A DNA stretch of 37,623 nucleotides. Origin: Ruminococcus sp. GTDB lineage: Bacteria; Bacillota; Clostridia; Oscillospirales; Ruminococcaceae. The notes below the pieces were generated by a model that searched no databases, was not told where the DNA came from, and was given only the letters and a program-made list of their open reading frames with translations. The DNA is taken from positions 1 through 37,623 of the forward strand of contig JAFWTA010000004.1 in assembly GCA_017519145.1 (NCBI GenBank). Direction: 5' to 3'. Within the stretch, counting starts at the first letter, position 1; the number at the start of each line of letters is the position of its first letter. Shown here piece by piece: positions 6,494 through 37,206 of the stretch. The position numbers and the translations under genes were made by a program.

Positions 6494-7237
6494 ATGAACA
6501 AAAAAATTGCTTTTACCATAGCATCCATGCTCATCTGCGGAAGTCTTGCTTCCTGCACGGTGGAAACATACAACGGCACCTCATCGCGCTCTGCACAGCA
6601 GTTCAACATCGAGGTAACACCCTATACCGAAGCTCAGCAGCAGGCTACGGAAGCTCCCAAGGCTGCCGAAACACAGGCAGCTGCCACAACAGCGGCTGCT
6701 CCCGAGAACAAGGCACCCGAGCAGAAGGCACCCGAGCTTACGGCTCCACAGGTCACACAGGCTCCCGCTCCTCAGGAGAGCAGCGTTCCTGCCGAATATG
6801 TCACTGCTGCGAAGTGCATCATGGTGAACCTCAATGATCTGGATATGGTAGACGGCGGCGCTGTCAGCACAGGCGGCGACGTAATAGACGACGGAATGTA
6901 CAGATATTCCAATGTCACCGACCCGCGTTTCGGAGCTTTGTCGGACGTTCAGACCTATGTTGAGTCTAAGGTCTGCGGTGACCTGCTCTACAAATACAGT
7001 GAGATCTACTCGGGCGACGTTCCCATGTTCAAGGAGTTTGACGGCAAACTCTGCTATTTGCAGGGCGGCAGAGGATGCGGCTATAACTTCAAGGGAGAAC
7101 CGTCCATCAGCAATATAACAGGCGGCTCATTCACATTCTCAGTCCCCGTGGACTACTTCGGCGATACACAGACCTTTGTCATCGACGCAGTAAACGACGG
7201 CGGCTTGTGGAAAGCCTGCTCCCTCACCCGTCAGTAA
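6494..7237 (+). CDS. Predicted secreted lipoprotein of unknown function
   Basis: The N-terminus is a lipoprotein signal peptide with the lipobox LASC, giving lipid-modified Cys21, so the protein should be anchored on the outer face of the membrane. Residues ~45-105 form a low-complexity Ala/Pro/Glu/Thr/Gln linker. The C-terminal ~140 residues look globular and contain four Cys residues. I recognise no catalytic motif or named family. The 247-residue product is preceded by GAAGG and followed by a strong hairpin terminator, so it is a single-gene unit. The architecture of lipid anchor, flexible linker and compact domain is common for extracellular sensory or binding lipoproteins. Confidence 0.8.
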   Translation: MNKKIAFTIASMLICGSLASCTVETYNGTSSRSAQQFNIEVTPYTEAQQQATEAPKAAETQAAATTAAAPENKAPEQKAPELTAPQVTQAPAPQESSVPAEYVTAAKCIMVNLNDLDMVDGGAVSTGGDVIDDGMYRYSNVTDPRFGALSDVQTYVESKVCGDLLYKYSEIYSGDVPMFKEFDGKLCYLQGGRGCGYNFKGEPSISNITGGSFTFSVPVDYFGDTQTFVIDAVNDGGLWKACSLTRQ

Positions 7238-7393: not shown

Positions 7394-7435
7394 TTATGCT
7401 AATGGCTATGGGCTAAGGGCTTAGGGGCTTTCCTT

Positions 7436-14048: not shown

Positions 14049-14081
14049 AATAGTGCAGTAAAGGCACTGCAAAAAACATTT

Positions 14082-14194
14082 GAAGAGTAAAAATGTGTTC
14101 GTTATACCACAAGGTATTCCAGTGTTGACCGAACGGGGAGTTGTCGGTCAAACGAAAAGCTCAGGCTTACGGTTCACATTTTGCATCCCGCTTC
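14082..14194 (+). promoter_or_regulatory. Tetrahydrofolate (THF) riboswitch
   Basis: The 5' side GAAGAGTAAAAATGTGTTCG and the 3' side GGTTCACATTTTGCATCCC-GCTTC match the conserved ends of the THF riboswitch. The 3' end resembles the hallmark GGTGAAT-CATTGCATCCGCTCC. GAAG/CTTC closes P1, and a TTGACCGA ... TCGGTCAA helix forms an inner arm. The position directly upstream of a folate transporter gene agrees with known THF-I riboswitches. How it switches the gene is not clear: only a weak GACAA ... TTGTC hairpin with a U-rich segment separates it from the AGGAGG site. The class call is by motif memory. Confidence 0.85.
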
Positions 14195-14264
14195 ATAGGA
14201 CAACTAAAAAAGAAACAGAACCTTCTTTTCTTGTCGTATGAGTGAGGAAAAGGAGGTTATTTTT

Positions 14265-29310: not shown

Positions 29311-29339
29311 ATTTTATCATCTATAGCTCAAAAAGTCAA
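29311..29339 (-). promoter_or_regulatory. Sigma-A promoter of the P-type ATPase gene
   Basis: On the minus strand TTGACT (29339-29334) and TAAAAT (29316-29311) are 17 nt apart. The ~80-nt leader contains a small hairpin (AAAAAGCG ... CGCTTTTTT, ~29255-29277), which could attenuate transcription, but this is weakly supported. Confidence 0.75.
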
Positions 29340-29444
29340 GATATATCAGTGAACAGACTGTGACAGAACTGTGACGGCGGAGTGAAACAGATATATTTTG
29401 ACATTGAGTGCTCCACGGACACGCCCACAGGGCTGTCCCTTAAA

Positions 29445-29485
29445 AGTGAAGGAGCCCGTTCCGGCTGAGAACGGGCTCCTTCACT
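29445..29485. terminator. Isolated perfect 17-bp hairpin
   Basis: Arms at 29445-29461 and 29469-29485 are exactly complementary around a 7-nt loop (CGGCTGA). There is no U-tract on either side and no gene ends within 100 bp, so its role is unclear. It could be a factor-independent barrier between the ATPase promoter and the agr region, or part of a small RNA. Confidence 0.5.
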
Positions 29486-30138
29486 GGGGGAGCTGAAGCG
29501 GGACTCCCCATATGAAAAATCACTGTATGATATACTGCGAAACAAGCGAATGAAAGGAAATTCTGAAAAAATATACTTTCAAGCGTTTTTTTGGTATATA
29601 GAGATGGTTTATTTTAAGAGAGATCTGAAAGCGTAGGGTTCACTGTTTGTTCCGAATAAGTAATGCCATTACAATGATCATCACCGAAAAAAGTGGGGGG
29701 ACGGGAAAAACCGTCTGCCTCCTTATGAAGGCAGGTGATTTTTTCCGTTAGGGGATATGATATATGTTATGAAAGCTGTTGGTGGGATCAAGCGTTCAGG
29801 CGGTATCACTATGATACCTTGTGCAGTCACTTTTAAATTATGACCGTATGCCCATTAATTAGGTCCGTCGCCCGAAAAGGTGACTGCGCAATCATCTGCC
29901 TGTCCGATCGATCTGTTTCAGGAATAGCTCTGAGACTGTGTCGGATGTGTTAGCTGAAACTGTTAGTGGCATTTGCTGGGTGGCAGCATTGGTGCGATAC
30001 TTGTTGCTCGGCGTACCATGGATAACATACGCTTCTTGTAGTGTGACTGTAGGATGTTTTGTAAAGGAAAAAATGCAAGTGAAGTGTTGAGAATAGTAGT
30101 GTTGATATTATCAGATTAAATAATATGTAAAGTAGTGT
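29486..30138. other. ~650-bp gene-poor region downstream of agrD
   Basis: I find no protein-coding gene here. It holds a nested hairpin at 29701-29748 (outer ACGGGAAAAA / TTTTTTCCGT, inner CTGCCT / AGGCAG). It reads as a terminator in the plus direction and possibly also in the minus direction. A long inverted repeat pairs TGTGCAGTCAC-TTTT (29820-29834) with AAAAGGTGACTGCGCA (29875-29890). Two very short antisense frames (24 and 20 codons) overlap this stem but lack convincing ribosome binding sites. The region may encode a small RNA or the 3' untranslated part of the agrD transcript. Confidence 0.4.
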
Positions 30139-30294
30139 TTAGAATTTTCTGAGTTTTCTGAGATCTTTGGGGGGGTCAAGCTGGTTGAGCCACCATGAGC
30201 AGGCTGAATTAGCATTCTGCTCGGCAGCCTTTACCGATCTTGATACGATAGATTTCATTAATTTTGCCTTGACAGTGTTTAGGTTTTTCTTCAT
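30139..30294 (-). CDS. agrD: AgrD-like cyclic autoinducer peptide precursor
   Basis: This 51-residue precursor has the three-part AgrD layout. The N-terminal helix is basic and amphipathic (residues 1-25). The core NSACSWWL is at 29-36, and the charged C-terminal tail QLDPPKDLRKLRKF is at 38-51. Aligning the tail with staphylococcal AgrD (DEVEVPKELTQL) without gaps places cleavage after Leu36, giving a five-residue ring C32-S-W-W-L36, as in S. aureus AIP-I (C-D-F-I-M). CAGGAGGA precedes the ATG. It is encoded downstream of the agr-type kinase gene, behind its own promoter. The AgrB endopeptidase encoded 2.2 kb upstream should process it. The signal's N-terminal end cannot be predicted. Confidence 0.87.
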   Translation of the reverse strand: MKKNLNTVKAKLMKSIVSRSVKAAEQNANSACSWWLNQLDPPKDLRKLRKF

Positions 30295-30355
30295 GACAAG
30301 AAATTCCTCCTGAGTAAATGATATGCGGGCACCTTCGGGTCGACGCCTAATTATT

Positions 30356-30413
30356 ATTATATTTCGGATTTTGCAAAAGTCAATAACTTTGCACTAAACG
30401 CCGTTTATTTGCA
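30356..30413 (-). promoter_or_regulatory. agrD promoter with three TGCAAA repeats
   Basis: On the minus strand TTGACT (30383-30378) and TATAAT (30361-30356) are 16 nt apart, giving a ~55-nt leader to the agrD start. Three TGCAAA hexamers (plus-strand TTTGCA at 30370, 30388 and 30408) lie in and upstream of the promoter, 18 and 20 nt apart. They are regular enough to suggest a regulator site. Binding by the adjacent LytTR protein is speculative. Confidence 0.75.
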
Positions 30414-30425
30414 TTTTTATCCCGT

Positions 30426-30460
30426 GAAAAGTCAAAACCGACCGTTATTCGGTCGGTTTT
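30426..30460 (-). terminator. Terminator overlapping the kinase stop codon
   Basis: On the minus strand perfect 11-bp arms (AAAACCGACCG and CGGTCGGTTTT) surround AATAA, which contains the stop codon of the kinase gene. They are followed by GACTTTTC. It separates the agrB-regulator-kinase transcript from agrD. Confidence 0.8.
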
Positions 30461-31755
30461 TCGTTAGCCTCGGTATCGGGTATAGGTATCAGGAGCTCGG
30501 TGATGAACAGGTCTCCCTCGGTATGTACGTTGAAGCTTCCGCTGTAATTCAGACAGGCGCTCCTTATATTTGAAAGTCCTATGCCCTGATGGAGCTCCTT
30601 TGTGCTCCTGAAGCCCTTCTCAACGTCGGGCGCCACATTGGCAAAGGTATTCTCCATATATATGAATACGAAGTAATTTCGGCGTGTTATGGACAGCCAC
30701 ACCCTGCGCTTGTCCTCGGGGAGCTCCTCACAGGCTTCAAAGGCATTGTCCAGCATATTCGAGAATATTGCCGTGATATCCAGATTTGATATGAAGTCTA
30801 TCCTTGTGAACTCCGCGTCTACTCTGAAGTCCACATTCATCTTCTCGGCGGCGTCGAGCTTGTTGTTGATGACCACGGTCAGAATGGAGCTGTCGCACTC
30901 AAAACGGGGCATGAGCTTGTTCAGTTCGGCATTGAGCAGGTCCTTGTAGCGCTCCGCCTCATCCGCCTTGTTGGAGTTTATGAGCCCCTCCAGCGATGAG
31001 ATGTGTTTTCTTACGTCGTGTATGACGCGCCTTGAAGCGGCGTATTTCTCGTTGAGCTCTTTGTAGGCGTTGAGCTGGAGCATGGACTGCTGCGTTACCA
31101 GTTCAAGCTCCTTTTCGGTCTGGTAGGCTCTGGAGATCATCCTTATGAGGTAAGCCAGATACAGGTCCAGCGAAAGGAAGGTCAGCAGTATGACGACTAT
31201 CTCCCATCTTGATTTCGATGAGCTTATCTTGTCGTTGAGGTACTGGAAGAGAAGTATCTCTCCTATCATGAGTATAAGGAACATGAGAAACTCATGAGTC
31301 CTTATATTGTTCATGCCCTTGCCTGCAACTATGAGCAGGAAGCACTTTGCCACGGCTATCATTACTATCCAGCTGAATATGGTAGCCGCTAAGAACAGCA
31401 CGGGATTGTACTTTATATCATCTGTCGCCACATTCAGTATGAACGCAAGCATCAGCGTCGAGAGCATCTCGACTATGCTGGAAGTTATGAGATATATGGC
31501 ATCATAGATGAGAAAGACCTTCCCCGGGGGCTTGTAGAACAGCAGATTAAGTAATATGAGCAGTGAGAATGAGGTAAGGAATTTAACTATGGGTATGTCT
31601 ATCATGTTGAGGGCGCCCTTGCTGATAGAGACTGCCGCAACGATCATTATCTTCTTCAGCAGTGAGAGCTCCCTTGAGGTATAGAGCTTGTCGAATATTA
31701 TCAGCGTGAAAACATACATACCCACCGCTGATATGGTATATAGTAAAAAAAACAT
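30445..31755 (-). CDS. AgrC-type GHKL sensor histidine kinase
   Basis: The 436-residue protein is a quorum-sensing receptor kinase. About six or seven membrane helices occupy residues ~1-205. A coiled-coil linker follows, and the phospho-acceptor His246 is in RRVIHDVRKH. The GHKL-type ATPase domain has N-box NMLDNAFEACE and G-box GIGLSNIR. The arrangement matches AgrC and similar HPK10 kinases that detect cyclic peptides at the membrane. The start codon lies 4 nt after the stop of the response regulator gene, with AGGGAT inside the regulator's end, so the two are coupled. It should phosphorylate the adjacent LytTR regulator. Peptide recognition is inferred from agrB and agrD nearby. Confidence 0.93.
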   Translation of the reverse strand: MFFLLYTISAVGMYVFTLIIFDKLYTSRELSLLKKIMIVAAVSISKGALNMIDIPIVKFLTSFSLLILLNLLFYKPPGKVFLIYDAIYLITSSIVEMLSTLMLAFILNVATDDIKYNPVLFLAATIFSWIVMIAVAKCFLLIVAGKGMNNIRTHEFLMFLILMIGEILLFQYLNDKISSSKSRWEIVVILLTFLSLDLYLAYLIRMISRAYQTEKELELVTQQSMLQLNAYKELNEKYAASRRVIHDVRKHISSLEGLINSNKADEAERYKDLLNAELNKLMPRFECDSSILTVVINNKLDAAEKMNVDFRVDAEFTRIDFISNLDITAIFSNMLDNAFEACEELPEDKRRVWLSITRRNYFVFIYMENTFANVAPDVEKGFRSTKELHQGIGLSNIRSACLNYSGSFNVHTEGDLFITELLIPIPDTEANEKPTE

Positions 31756-31759
31756 ATGC

Positions 31760-32485
31760 TTATCCCTGTCTGATATAGTTCTTGATAAAACGGCTGAACT
31801 CGTTGTGGAATTCCTTCAGTTTTTTCTGCGCAACGGGCACTTCTATGCCGTTTGTGGTGTATAGTGTGAAGTTGTTGAGCTTGTCTATATGCTCCATATT
31901 GACAATGAAGCTCTTATGGGGCGAGACAAAGTTCTCTGAGTCAACAAGGGTAAAAATATCGGAAAGGCTTCCCTTAATGCGGTATTTCTCCGACTTTGTG
32001 TACACGGTTATCCGTCGGTTGCCTGTATACTCAAAGGCGTAGATATTTTTCAGGCTGAGCAGCAGCGGTCCGTCCTCGCCTTTGAGCTGAATGACCGCTT
32101 CTTTCTCGGCATTCTCTGTGAGATAGCGTGAAAGCTCGCCCAGAACGCTGTAAATACGCTCCTTTTCAAAGGGCTTGACCACGAAATCGAAGGGATGGAC
32201 AGCGTAGCTTCGCAGGGCGAACTCCGAATGGTTGGTGACATATACTATCCTCGCCTTCTTGTCTATCTCGCGGAAAAGCTGGGCAGTCTTGAGACCGTCA
32301 ATGCCTCCCATTTCGATATCGAGAAATATCAGGTCGAAGCTCAGCTTAGTCTCAAGGAGCTTTTCTCCGCCCCTGAAGCTGTGTACGTCGTATTCTACCG
32401 AGTGTTCACGGCTGTATTCCGAGATGCATTCCTTGATCGCATCTATCATTTCCTTATCGTCGTCGCATATTGCAATGTTTATCAT
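31760..32485 (-). CDS. AgrA-type LytTR response regulator
   Basis: The 241-residue protein has a receiver domain (~1-120) with acidic CDDD at residues 7-10 and phospho-acceptor Asp56 in IFLDIEM. A C-terminal LytTR DNA-binding domain follows (~140-238, with FVSPHKSFIVNMEHI and EVPVAQKKLKEF). This is the architecture of AgrA, which activates promoters by binding pairs of ~9-bp direct repeats. The ATG at 32485 overlaps the agrB stop by 4 nt (ATGA) and follows AGGAAAGGAG; an earlier in-frame codon lies deep inside agrB and is unlikely. It acts with the kinase encoded next. Confidence 0.94.
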   Translation of the reverse strand: MINIAICDDDKEMIDAIKECISEYSREHSVEYDVHSFRGGEKLLETKLSFDLIFLDIEMGGIDGLKTAQLFREIDKKARIVYVTNHSEFALRSYAVHPFDFVVKPFEKERIYSVLGELSRYLTENAEKEAVIQLKGEDGPLLLSLKNIYAFEYTGNRRITVYTKSEKYRIKGSLSDIFTLVDSENFVSPHKSFIVNMEHIDKLNNFTLYTTNGIEVPVAQKKLKEFHNEFSRFIKNYIRQG

Positions 32486-33066
32486 GATATCGCTCCTTTC
32501 CTGTTTGAAAGCCTGCCCACAGCAAGGAATATCCCTGTGAACAACAGCGCCATAGCTGCCGGAAGCATCAGCCCGTAGACGCTGAACGCCCACATGACCG
32601 CGACAGCTGCAATGACAGCGGCTGCGGCAATGAGAGACCTTCTGCGGAACACCCTTTTCTCGATGTCGTCAAAGGGCTTGTTGGGTGCCTCCACAGGTGC
32701 GAGAAGGCACACAAGCACAGCTCCCGCAGCAGCGGATGCAATGGCGGTATAAAGTGCAGATCTGCCCGTTATGAGCTTTGTAGCTGCTATGACGGCAGCA
32801 AGTATGAGCATTGAGTATATGAAGCAGGCCGTCCTCGTTCTTGCGTGAAATCCGCCGCAGCAGCTCCGCAGAGGAGGGTATGCCAGCATGAATACTATGA
32901 CAGCAGGTGCGCTTCTGAGCAGAAAGGCTGCTAAAAGCATGACTGCCGATATGAGCGTTTTCATTATGTTAAGTTCAAGACCGTAGCGGACTATTTCCGC
33001 ATTCTCCTCGTCAGCCCAGCCGCCTCCGAGAAGCTTTTCCATTATAAGATCCAGTAGTCGGTTCAT
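32482..33066 (-). CDS. agrB: AgrB-like autoinducer processing endopeptidase
   Basis: AgrB is a membrane cysteine endopeptidase that removes the C-terminal tail of AgrD and helps form the thiolactone ring. The 194-residue protein has ~5-6 membrane helices and the family motif CCGGFHARTRTAC, giving catalytic His74 and Cys81 with the same 7-residue spacing as S. aureus His77 and Cys84. The APVEAPNKP segment is another family hallmark. The ATG at 33066 is chosen because AAAGGGAT lies just upstream; an in-frame ATG at 33093 sits before that site. It is the first gene of the agrB-regulator-kinase transcript. Its substrate is most likely the agrD product encoded 2.2 kb away. Confidence 0.95.
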   Translation of the reverse strand: MNRLLDLIMEKLLGGGWADEENAEIVRYGLELNIMKTLISAVMLLAAFLLRSAPAVIVFMLAYPPLRSCCGGFHARTRTACFIYSMLILAAVIAATKLITGRSALYTAIASAAAGAVLVCLLAPVEAPNKPFDDIEKRVFRRRSLIAAAAVIAAVAVMWAFSVYGLMLPAAMALLFTGIFLAVGRLSNRKGAIS

Positions 33067-33137: not shown

Positions 33138-33166
33138 ATTATATATTAAATTCAATCAAAAATCAA
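33138..33166 (-). promoter_or_regulatory. Sigma-A promoter of the agrB operon
   Basis: On the minus strand TTGATT (33166-33161) and TATAAT (33143-33138) are 17 nt apart, giving a leader of about 65 nt to the agrB start. Confidence 0.78.
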
Positions 33167-33176
33167 GAGAAGTGAC

Positions 33177-33206
33177 CCGAAATGTCATTTTTATTCCTGA
33201 AATGGC
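33177..33206 (-). promoter_or_regulatory. Candidate LytTR operator (direct repeats)
   Basis: On the minus strand two copies of CATTTCRGG, extended as CCATTTCAGG and ACATTTCGGG, start 20 nt apart just upstream of the -35 box of agrB. LytTR regulators usually bind pairs of ~9-bp direct repeats about two helical turns apart upstream of -35, so this is a plausible autoactivation site. The assignment is inference. Confidence 0.45.
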
Positions 33207-33394
33207 ACACTTGTGCTGTATTTAAGTGGATTTTGCACATTTAAGTTAGCGTCATCTTACTATATTGCACCTACGGAGCGTTCTTCCGCCCTGCTCCCCG
33301 GAAGCAGCTGCACTGTTTGTTACAGCACAATAGTACAAACAATAGCAGCAGCATAAGAAAATGTCGGCGATACGTTGTTTTTAACAAAAATGAC

Positions 33395-36510: not shown

Positions 36511-36550
36511 AAAGATCCCGTAAGCTTGACTTACGGGATCTTTTTATTTT
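36511..36550. terminator. Bidirectional terminator between the dockerin-protein and sortase genes
   Basis: Perfect 14-bp arms (AAAGATCCCGTAAG and CTTACGGGATCTTT) enclose CTTGA between the two converging genes. TTATTTTT follows on the plus strand and GCTTTTATTT on the minus strand. Confidence 0.9.
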
Positions 36551-37206
36551 TCTTCTTCTTCAAGTGAAGCTCTTACGGTAACACGGCTCTGTCCGCTGAG
36601 GGTGCAGGTAAACAGCGTCAGATCCCAGTCAGAGGAGCCGCCGCCCAACATATGATCTATATCATAGCCGTCAATATTCTCGGTGTACCCCACACGGTAA
36701 AAATACTGCATACCATCCGCATCGGTGAACCATATCTCGTCCCCCTGCGAAAGCTCCTTTATCCTGCCGAAATGGCTGTTATAGTTATGGGCTGCGATTA
36801 TGATATCCCTGCCCTCGATGGTGCCGCTGTACTTACAGGGCGACATCTTCAGTCTGTCGTAGCTCCAACCGTTCATAACCGGAAGCTCCAGCCCCAGCTG
36901 AGGAAGTGTGATATATCCGCAGTACTCCTCTCCGCCGACGTTTACGCTCCGCATTTCCGAGGGCGGCTGTGTTGAAGGCTCCTCATATGGTGCAAACAGG
37001 TCGTCCGAGGGCGGCTCGGTGCTTGCCTCGGTGGTAACGGACGCAGGTGACGGGTCGGGAATAAGCTGTTTCAGCTCCGCCATAACGTCCTGAGACTTCT
37101 CAAAGGCTGCATTGCTCTCATACATATTGTACACTACAAGCCCCACAGCTCCGCCAATGAGGAGTATACCTATCAACAGTGGCAATATCCACAGCTTTTT
37201 CTTCAT
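36544..37206 (-). CDS. Sortase
   Basis: Sortases are membrane-bound transpeptidases that attach surface proteins to the cell wall or build pili. The 220-residue protein has one N-terminal membrane helix (~5-27) and a Pro/Thr/Ser/Glu-rich stalk (~45-85). The catalytic domain has His140 in AAHNYNSH, Cys201 in TLFTCT and Arg208 in QSRVTV, all correctly spaced. The TLFTC context and length suggest a class D/E-like enzyme rather than a pilin-type class C enzyme. It converges on the dockerin-protein gene, which itself lacks a sortase signal, so its substrates are elsewhere. In ruminococci a sortase anchors the scaffoldin system, which makes the location suggestive. Confidence 0.93.
   Translation of the reverse strand: MKKKLWILPLLIGILLIGGAVGLVVYNMYESNAAFEKSQDVMAELKQLIPDPSPASVTTEASTEPPSDDLFAPYEEPSTQPPSEMRSVNVGGEEYCGYITLPQLGLELPVMNGWSYDRLKMSPCKYSGTIEGRDIIIAAHNYNSHFGRIKELSQGDEIWFTDADGMQYFYRVGYTENIDGYDIDHMLGGGSSDWDLTLFTCTLSGQSRVTVRASLEEEEK

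Follow-up and report, generated by a model that had tools for sequence, protein, structure and literature searches.

What does an agr-type quorum-sensing system control when the gene for its signal stands apart from the gene that processes it, at the head of several hundred bases of conserved non-coding DNA? The question is raised by a 37,623-nucleotide stretch of Ruminococcus sp. DNA (assembly GCA_017519145.1, contig JAFWTA010000004.1), which we call the window and which is one complete contig (C47) of a 3.17-Mb genome. Its minus strand carries agrB, agrA, agrC and agrD, and behind agrD lies a conserved, structured, terminator-ended tract (29440..30138) that we consider a candidate RNAIII-like RNA. 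The classical effector RNA of agr is RNAIII; for many non-staphylococcal agr systems, as far as we know, the output is not established.

We believe the locus is probably an agr variant in which an RNAIII-like RNA carries the gene for the signal precursor at its head, and we give this reading, which is drawn from sequence, a probability of about 0.58. It is also reasonably probable that agrD and the tract form one transcript of about 0.9 kb with agrD first. A larger proposal is that a single agr-controlled transcript is bifunctional, holding both the AgrD signal and a riboregulatory output, and has been co-inherited across some 20 Ruminococcus species as a new RNA family; this we hold more tentatively, somewhat short of an even chance. 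In our opinion the system is a true agr system, and what is new is the architecture and the candidate RNA family. A conserved RNA tied to agrD would give the agr of fibre-degrading rumen bacteria an output, and would suggest that a signal gene and an effector can share one RNA. It would also be an independent case for how quorum sensing and riboregulation become coupled.

A split signal gene and the tract behind it

The agr locus is genuine and complete, with genes, domains and the named residues all where expected. Transcription on the minus strand runs from agrB (32482..33066) through agrA (31760..32485), which overlaps agrB by 4 bases, and agrC (30445..31755) to an intrinsic-terminator-like hairpin that closes agrC (30436..30454), and then across 150 bp to agrD (30139..30294). 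AgrB, a 194-residue membrane peptidase and exporter of the signal precursor, has His74 and Cys81, which we take to be catalytic. It matches PF04647 at E 6.8e-31 (107.5 bits, cut-off 23) and is the single AgrB match in the whole genome. AgrA (241 residues) is a response regulator with a receiver domain (PF00072, Response_reg; Asp56) and a LytTR DNA-binding domain (PF04397), each above its Pfam cut-off, while against the AgrA equivalog NF046049 it scores 41.7 bits, far below the cut-off of 400. AgrC (436 residues) is a membrane GHKL histidine kinase with His246, its HATPase_c_5 domain (PF14501) scoring 70.7 bits (E 1.1e-19, cut-off 22), and it has orthologues in relatives. The 51-residue precursor AgrD has no match in Pfam and lies above the TIGR04223 cut-off (26.8 bits against 19). 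By analogy its ring is assigned as Cys-Ser-Trp-Trp-Leu, followed by NQLDPPKDLRKLRKF; the ring segment takes 16 forms among 20 genomes. The first-pass annotation, made from the letters alone, had read four intact genes in the order agrB, regulator, kinase, terminator, agrD, had named all four of these AgrB, AgrA and AgrC residues and had proposed the two profile checks on AgrB and AgrD; each of these points holds. It missed the agrD operator, the split-off signal unit and the conserved tract behind agrD. The system is functional-looking agr quorum sensing, in which a secreted cyclic peptide is predicted to activate AgrC.

Possession of agr is by itself ordinary in the genus. We use a sample of 125 genomes, in which PF04647 matches are common: 65 have one at E <= 0.001, 58 have one over the cut-off, and there are up to nine above-cut-off matches per genome. 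Searched against this sample, the window AgrB gives 20 matches at E <= 1.4e-45, the next being only 4.3e-26. We call the 20 genomes with this orthologous AgrB, the window's included, carriers and the other 105 non-carriers. The locus belongs to a distinct clade, present in 20 of 125 genomes. Identity to the window across the 19 other genomes is 47-87% for AgrB, 71-99% for AgrA and 61-98% for AgrD; in one of them, G069, a draft of 260 contigs, AgrB is cut by a contig end. Three loci were found in a named collection, with AgrB identities of 87% (R. flavefaciens SAb67), 73% (R. flavefaciens ND2009) and 72% (a metagenome-assembled genome).

Adjacency of agrB and agrD is typical of agr, though not essential, and it is here that the clade stands out. 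The order agrB-agrA-agrC-agrD is found in 16 of the 20 orthologous loci, with agrD 2.26-2.38 kb from agrB; in three carriers the distance is 11.7-13.5 kb, and in one (G069) agrD is on another contig. It is within 700 bp of agrB in none of the 20. Elsewhere in the genus the agr loci, of which some species have several per genome, also belong to the AgrB and AgrD families. Among 83 such agrB loci, 76 have agrD on the contig, in every case within 262 bp of agrB, and seven have no AgrD on the contig. This comparison used 103 of the 111 above-cut-off AgrB rows, leaving out eight that are short or partial, and all above-cut-off AgrD rows except the three weakest. Since agrD is far from agrB in all 20 orthologous loci and near it in all 76 comparable others, the split signal gene marks this clade. 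In the four genomes where agrBAC is apart from agrD (G067, G015, G105 and G069), agrD, its operator and the tract are still together. As a separate observation, four unrelated agr loci (G119:C103, G109:C221, G115:C23 and G117:C34) seemingly have at least two AgrD-like frames side by side.

In the window 915 bp separate agrD from the next gene, a P-type ATPase, and most of this space is occupied by the tract. We aligned the tracts of all 20 carriers, those with displaced agrBAC included; they run 641-767 nt from the agrD stop to just beyond an intrinsic terminator (29440..29485 on the minus strand, with its hairpin at 29445-29485 followed by a tail). The most conserved part is the 3' domain (29488..29684, minus strand), about 197 nt before the terminator, which is 100% identical to that of G022 and 82-95% identical to those of the other 18 relatives. 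For comparison, over 18 relatives (G069, with its cut agrB, was omitted), identity to G022 is 88% for agrB DNA and 94% for agrA DNA, and identity to the others is 55-73% and 69-88%. The 3' domain is more conserved than the DNA of either gene.

In a BLAST search of the 125 genomes, the 20 carriers and no others match the 3' domain over most of its length. The other 105 have no long match, and two of them have short ones (25 nt in G082 and 31 nt in G078, both at E 3.3e-4). The hypergeometric chance of this overlap is 1.4e-23, a figure that is formal only since the carriers share descent. A covariance model of the domain (R1) was run with stricter filters on an even sample of the family (396 genomes, 126 genera) and matched 2 genomes, both of them carriers. 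All 20 carriers have the operator and the tract along with this AgrB, and none of the 105 others has them, the tract being counted over most of its length; the co-occurrence of tract and AgrB clade is strict. We reject chance as an explanation of the locus and tract, given the profiles and the conservation across 20 genomes. In G069 contig C54 ends within the tract (L128 and L101), and a second, 73-nt partial match is probably the far side of an assembly break rather than a second copy.

The agrD control region

agrD has a strong candidate promoter of its own. TTGACT-16-TATAAT (30356..30383, minus strand) matches at 11 of 12 positions and is conserved in the 20 carriers. Only 4 bp before its -35 lies the operator ATGCAAATAAACGGCGTTTAGTGCAAA (30388..30414, minus strand), a direct repeat of RTGCAAA at 20 bp spacing. 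Every carrier has the block ATGCAAATANNNGGCGTTTAGTGCAAA, its final N being C in 19, directly followed by TTGACTTTT and TATAAT; then come a conserved leader hairpin of the predicted agrD transcript (GGCGTC..., 30328..30347 on the minus strand, seen in alignment A3 and in the fold) and GGAGG. The 26-bp operator pattern matches at agrD with 0 mismatches in all 20 carriers. At up to 3 mismatches it is absent from the other 105 genomes and has no second copy in the window genome.

One relative has more of these sites. G022 has two extra copies, with 2 and 3 mismatches, set 4 and 3 bp before a -35. The first gene behind the copy at L127 (contig C5, near record position 7050) encodes a 161-residue protein; next in the operon are two small peptides that, at 25.9 and 22.1 bits, exceed the 21.5-bit cut-off of the class IIb bacteriocin profile, and the operon also encodes a C39-type exporter (R. 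flavefaciens SAb67). Behind the copy at L126 (contig C4, near record position 7428) are a 132-residue protein, two FtsX-type permeases and an ABC ATPase, a cluster that presumably resembles the lactococcin 972 type. The 132-residue protein has a signal-like N-terminus and no profile match. Because the extra copies are also set just before a -35, we believe the block at agrD is most likely a DNA site for a regulator. An operator of this kind lets targets be predicted by sequence, and a bacteriocin-like operon behind it in one relative would link cell density to rumen competition.

Which protein binds there is suggested by layout. In S. aureus the binding site of AgrA ahead of P2 and P3 consists of two direct repeats (PMC4227749). 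At agrD, too, the -35 is preceded by a pair of direct repeats separated by about two helical turns, and RTGMAAA pairs are 20 bp apart in 7 of 7 sites compared, although these were picked for looking alike (L157 and L193 omitted). On this resemblance we infer that AgrA is the binder.

The search for further targets quickly reaches background. A looser pattern, derived from the two G022 sites together with the one at agrD, matches beyond agrD in 6 of 20 carriers (once each in G009, G010, G020, G021 and G069, at 3 mismatches, and twice in G022). It also matches 6 of the 105 non-carriers at 2 or 3 mismatches, and the reversed pattern matches 8 of the 125 genomes, so operator sites at 3 mismatches are near background. 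A further, noisier pattern matches 49 of 125 genomes, and its reversed control is found once in the window genome as well. Among the weaker sites, G010, G021 and G009 (L156, L158 and L192) have one before the same 282-residue protein, directly before a -35-like TTGCAA, that of G009 being a further site matched by the noisier pattern; the G020 match has no -35 beside it. G009 has two more with a -35-like hexamer (L155 and L193), before proteins of 201 and 696 residues, also near background. A 3-mismatch element (TATTCAAATAGCAGG...) in G008, G010 and G088 was dropped as a target as it belongs to a longer near-identical stretch. That stretch (L189, L190 and L191) encodes a small protein of about 141 residues, is far more alike between genomes than the agr genes are, and looks mobile.

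The upstream region of agrB has a different arrangement. Its promoter is TTGATT-17-TATAAT (33138..33166, minus strand), and its TATAAT is conserved when the upstream regions of 19 loci are aligned (neither this alignment nor the repeat counts include G069). Beyond it are two CATTTC half-sites 20 bp apart, a LytTR-like tandem site (33176..33207, minus strand). Of the 19 loci, 10 have CAnTT pairs with 13-16 nt between them in front of agrB; single-base shuffles yield 0.4 on average and never more than 2. The stricter ACAnTT-14-ACAnTT is found in 5 of 19, the window not among them, against a shuffle maximum of 1.

Taken together, this anatomy suggests two transcription units. Unit 1, agrB-agrA-agrC, would supply the sensor and the response regulator as well as the enzyme that processes the signal. 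Unit 2, transcribed from a strong promoter whose -35 is closely preceded by the invariant tandem operator, would encode AgrD and then about 0.7 kb of structured RNA ending at the terminator. From what is known of the families, AgrD would be cleaved by AgrB and closed into a Cys-Ser-Trp-Trp-Leu thiolactone ring, AgrC would sense the peptide and AgrA would respond. Once phosphorylated, AgrA may occupy the tandem operator and increase expression of unit 2, and signal and RNA would both rise. The RNA would be the output, an RNAIII-like regulator acting in trans on other messages.

The tract as a candidate RNA

Does the tract look like RNA at all? We believe it does. Two-sided changes affect 14 of the 72 pairs in the consensus fold. 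The terminator stem accounts for 8 of these, its changes being compensatory, and a simple scan finds a terminator with a T-run in 18 of the 20 sequences. The middle hairpin (29701..29748, minus strand) is missed by the consensus fold and appears with 17-22 predicted pairs when each genome is folded singly, re-formed with different letters in relatives; that of G059 is different and weaker. The fold z is -5.45 for the 699-nt tract and -5.20 for the whole unit (20 shuffles each). As for coding potential, no frame of at least 24 residues is common to all 20 tracts, the most widespread being matched in only 10 genomes, and one-base gaps break the alignment of the 3' domain. A conserved CATATCC in the tract (near 29750-29770, minus strand), absent in some genomes, is by eye complementary to GGATATG-like letters before the ribosome-binding site of some agrB genes and some genes for leucine-rich repeat (LRR) dockerin proteins.

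By sequence and structure the tract matches no known RNA family. Rfam, which presumably includes RNAIII, has no family that the window's tract matches at gathering score; there are sub-threshold matches only, and the same holds for the tracts of G021 and G067. The best sub-threshold match, Hrs13 (30397-30463, E 0.003), is on the opposite strand, and its 25.5 bits fall short of the gathering score, 52. What agrD and the tract together do have, as far as the letters go, is RNAIII-like anatomy: a putative long structured RNA with a small 5' frame, its own promoter and tandem site, and an intrinsic terminator. It is a candidate new RNA family.

Several points weigh against the reading of agrD as the head of such an RNA. 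In the window and four near relatives the agrD message could stop prematurely at a hairpin with a run of T's behind it (29734-29715), and weak promoter-like pairs recur within the tract in groups of genomes. The 5' part is much less conserved (46-98%). In the 3' domain only 1 of 37 pairs has two-sided changes, a near absence of covariation that follows from nearly all its letters being invariant. The plus strand folds equally well (z -6.08), so the strand assignment rests on the agrD promoter and on the terminator with its T-run. The operator resembles the staphylococcal site in layout only, and the LytTR-like repeats before agrB are unlike it in sequence. Finally, duplex prediction between the 3' domain and the start regions of LRR-dockerin genes shows no signal (mean z -0.46 in 14 genomes), some of the start codons being guessed.

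The first three of these points bear on the strongest alternative, in which agrD and the RNA are separate. The conserved 3' part (about 29760-29440), or only the 3' domain, would then be a small RNA in its own right, transcribed from its own promoter. Lower conservation of the 5' part is what this would predict, and a terminator-like hairpin does precede the 3' domain in the window, in four near relatives and in G010. When the three best promoter-like pairs are listed for each genome, TTGATT-15-TATAAT (10/12) is found in G088 and G027, TTGATC-16-TAACAT (8/12) in G118, G008 and G096, and TTGAAA/CAGAAT within the 3' domain in seven genomes. However, none of the promoter-like pairs has the same position in every one of the 20 tracts. 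In the window the best pair scores 8/12, against 11/12 for the agrD promoter. Both points favour a single transcript. The blocks ahead of the middle hairpin are also conserved, and agrD and the tract are never apart, even where agrBAC is displaced. We consider a separate small RNA unlikely, though it is the alternative that survives best.

The reading of agrD as the head of an RNAIII-like RNA can also be set beside known systems. AgrB, AgrD, AgrC and AgrA are found in S. aureus too, which also has tandem direct repeats upstream of the controlled P2 and P3 promoters and an effector RNA that also encodes a small peptide (PMC4227749), where here we have a candidate RNA only. The small gene at the head of the RNA would be agrD here and not a haemolysin, and the gene order is B-A-C and then D, unlike the staphylococcal one. 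For the clostridia we rely on the accessible part of PMC10602386. In C. difficile the two-component system RgaS-RgaR activates both the agrB1D1 operon and the small RNA SpoZ, but these are separate loci, whereas here agrD and the tract are contiguous, and the agrB1D1 peptide does not signal through RgaS-RgaR. In C. perfringens agr-type sensing through VirSR is tied to VR-RNA, VirT and VirU, but a structured tract behind agrD is not described in that part of the source. RNAs under agr-type control are already known from the same text: RNAIII, VR-RNA, VirT, VirU and SpoZ.

For rumen bacteria the accessible text of one review cites agrA/agrB in 199 rumen genomes (PMC10838665), and that of a 2026 survey reports 75 TIGR04223 peptides in rumen isolates (PMC13289728). 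Our searches of a collection of open-access papers (subscription papers and preprints lay outside their scope) turned up no account of this locus or of an RNA linked to agrD.

The dockerin neighbour and two weaker readings

The first-pass annotation placed the locus in a fibre-degrader, head to head with a 1000-residue dockerin protein, and suggested density control of surface or cellulosomal functions. The setting is right: this is a Ruminococcus flavefaciens-like genome with many dockerin proteins, and the divergent 1000-residue protein (P0005, 33504..36506, plus strand) has a type I dockerin (PF00404, E 2.1e-9). The proposed control fares less well. A divergent protein of 910-1024 residues lies within 520 bp of agrB in 14 of the 18 relatives read upstream, and the nine of these neighbours that were scanned all have BspA-type LRRs and a dockerin (G010, G043, G059 and G020 have other neighbours there). 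This makes the LRR-dockerin neighbour frequent in the clade, but it is gone from the window genome, whose best match is 31% over part of the protein. P0005 is a different dockerin protein from the usual neighbour of the relatives, and its homologue in G022 lies one gene further out from agrB.

One could therefore propose that the agr locus serves mainly to control the adjacent dockerin surface protein directly, which would be compatible with the other readings. The neighbour is present also in three relatives whose agrD is over 11 kb away, and the LytTR-like repeats lie in the intergenic region it shares with agrB in 10 of 19 loci. However, dockerin matches are found in all 125 genomes of the genus, so a dockerin neighbour alone is weak evidence, and with the agrD operator lacking another copy in the window genome at up to 3 mismatches, direct control of P0005 through it is unsupported. 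We regard this proposal as improbable. The association with a surface dockerin protein is frequent in the clade and regulation is a candidate link; we reject cellulosome control as an established role.

Two readings place the tract outside this argument and both are very improbable. A leader or terminator region of the P-type ATPase, outside agr, is rejected: the ATPase is the next gene in the window and in 14 relatives where its frame was read, and its start is also visible in G067, G075 and G105, but a conserved intrinsic terminator and a separate conserved promoter (29311..29339, minus strand) stand between tract and ATPase, and the tract tracks the AgrB clade, a comparison in which the ATPase itself was not searched for in the 105 non-carriers. 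That the tract is conserved as DNA, for instance as a cluster of protein-binding sites, would suit a 3' domain invariant mostly in letters and not just in pairs, but the terminator and middle hairpin stay paired despite letter changes, and about 197 bp is long for an operator cluster.

Two other features of the window may be recorded. A sortase gene (36544-37206, minus strand) adjoins the dockerin protein, and homologues lie near agrB in the loci of four relatives. At 14081-14195 on the plus strand there is a tetrahydrofolate riboswitch, which scores 73.5 bits in Rfam against a gathering score of 36.

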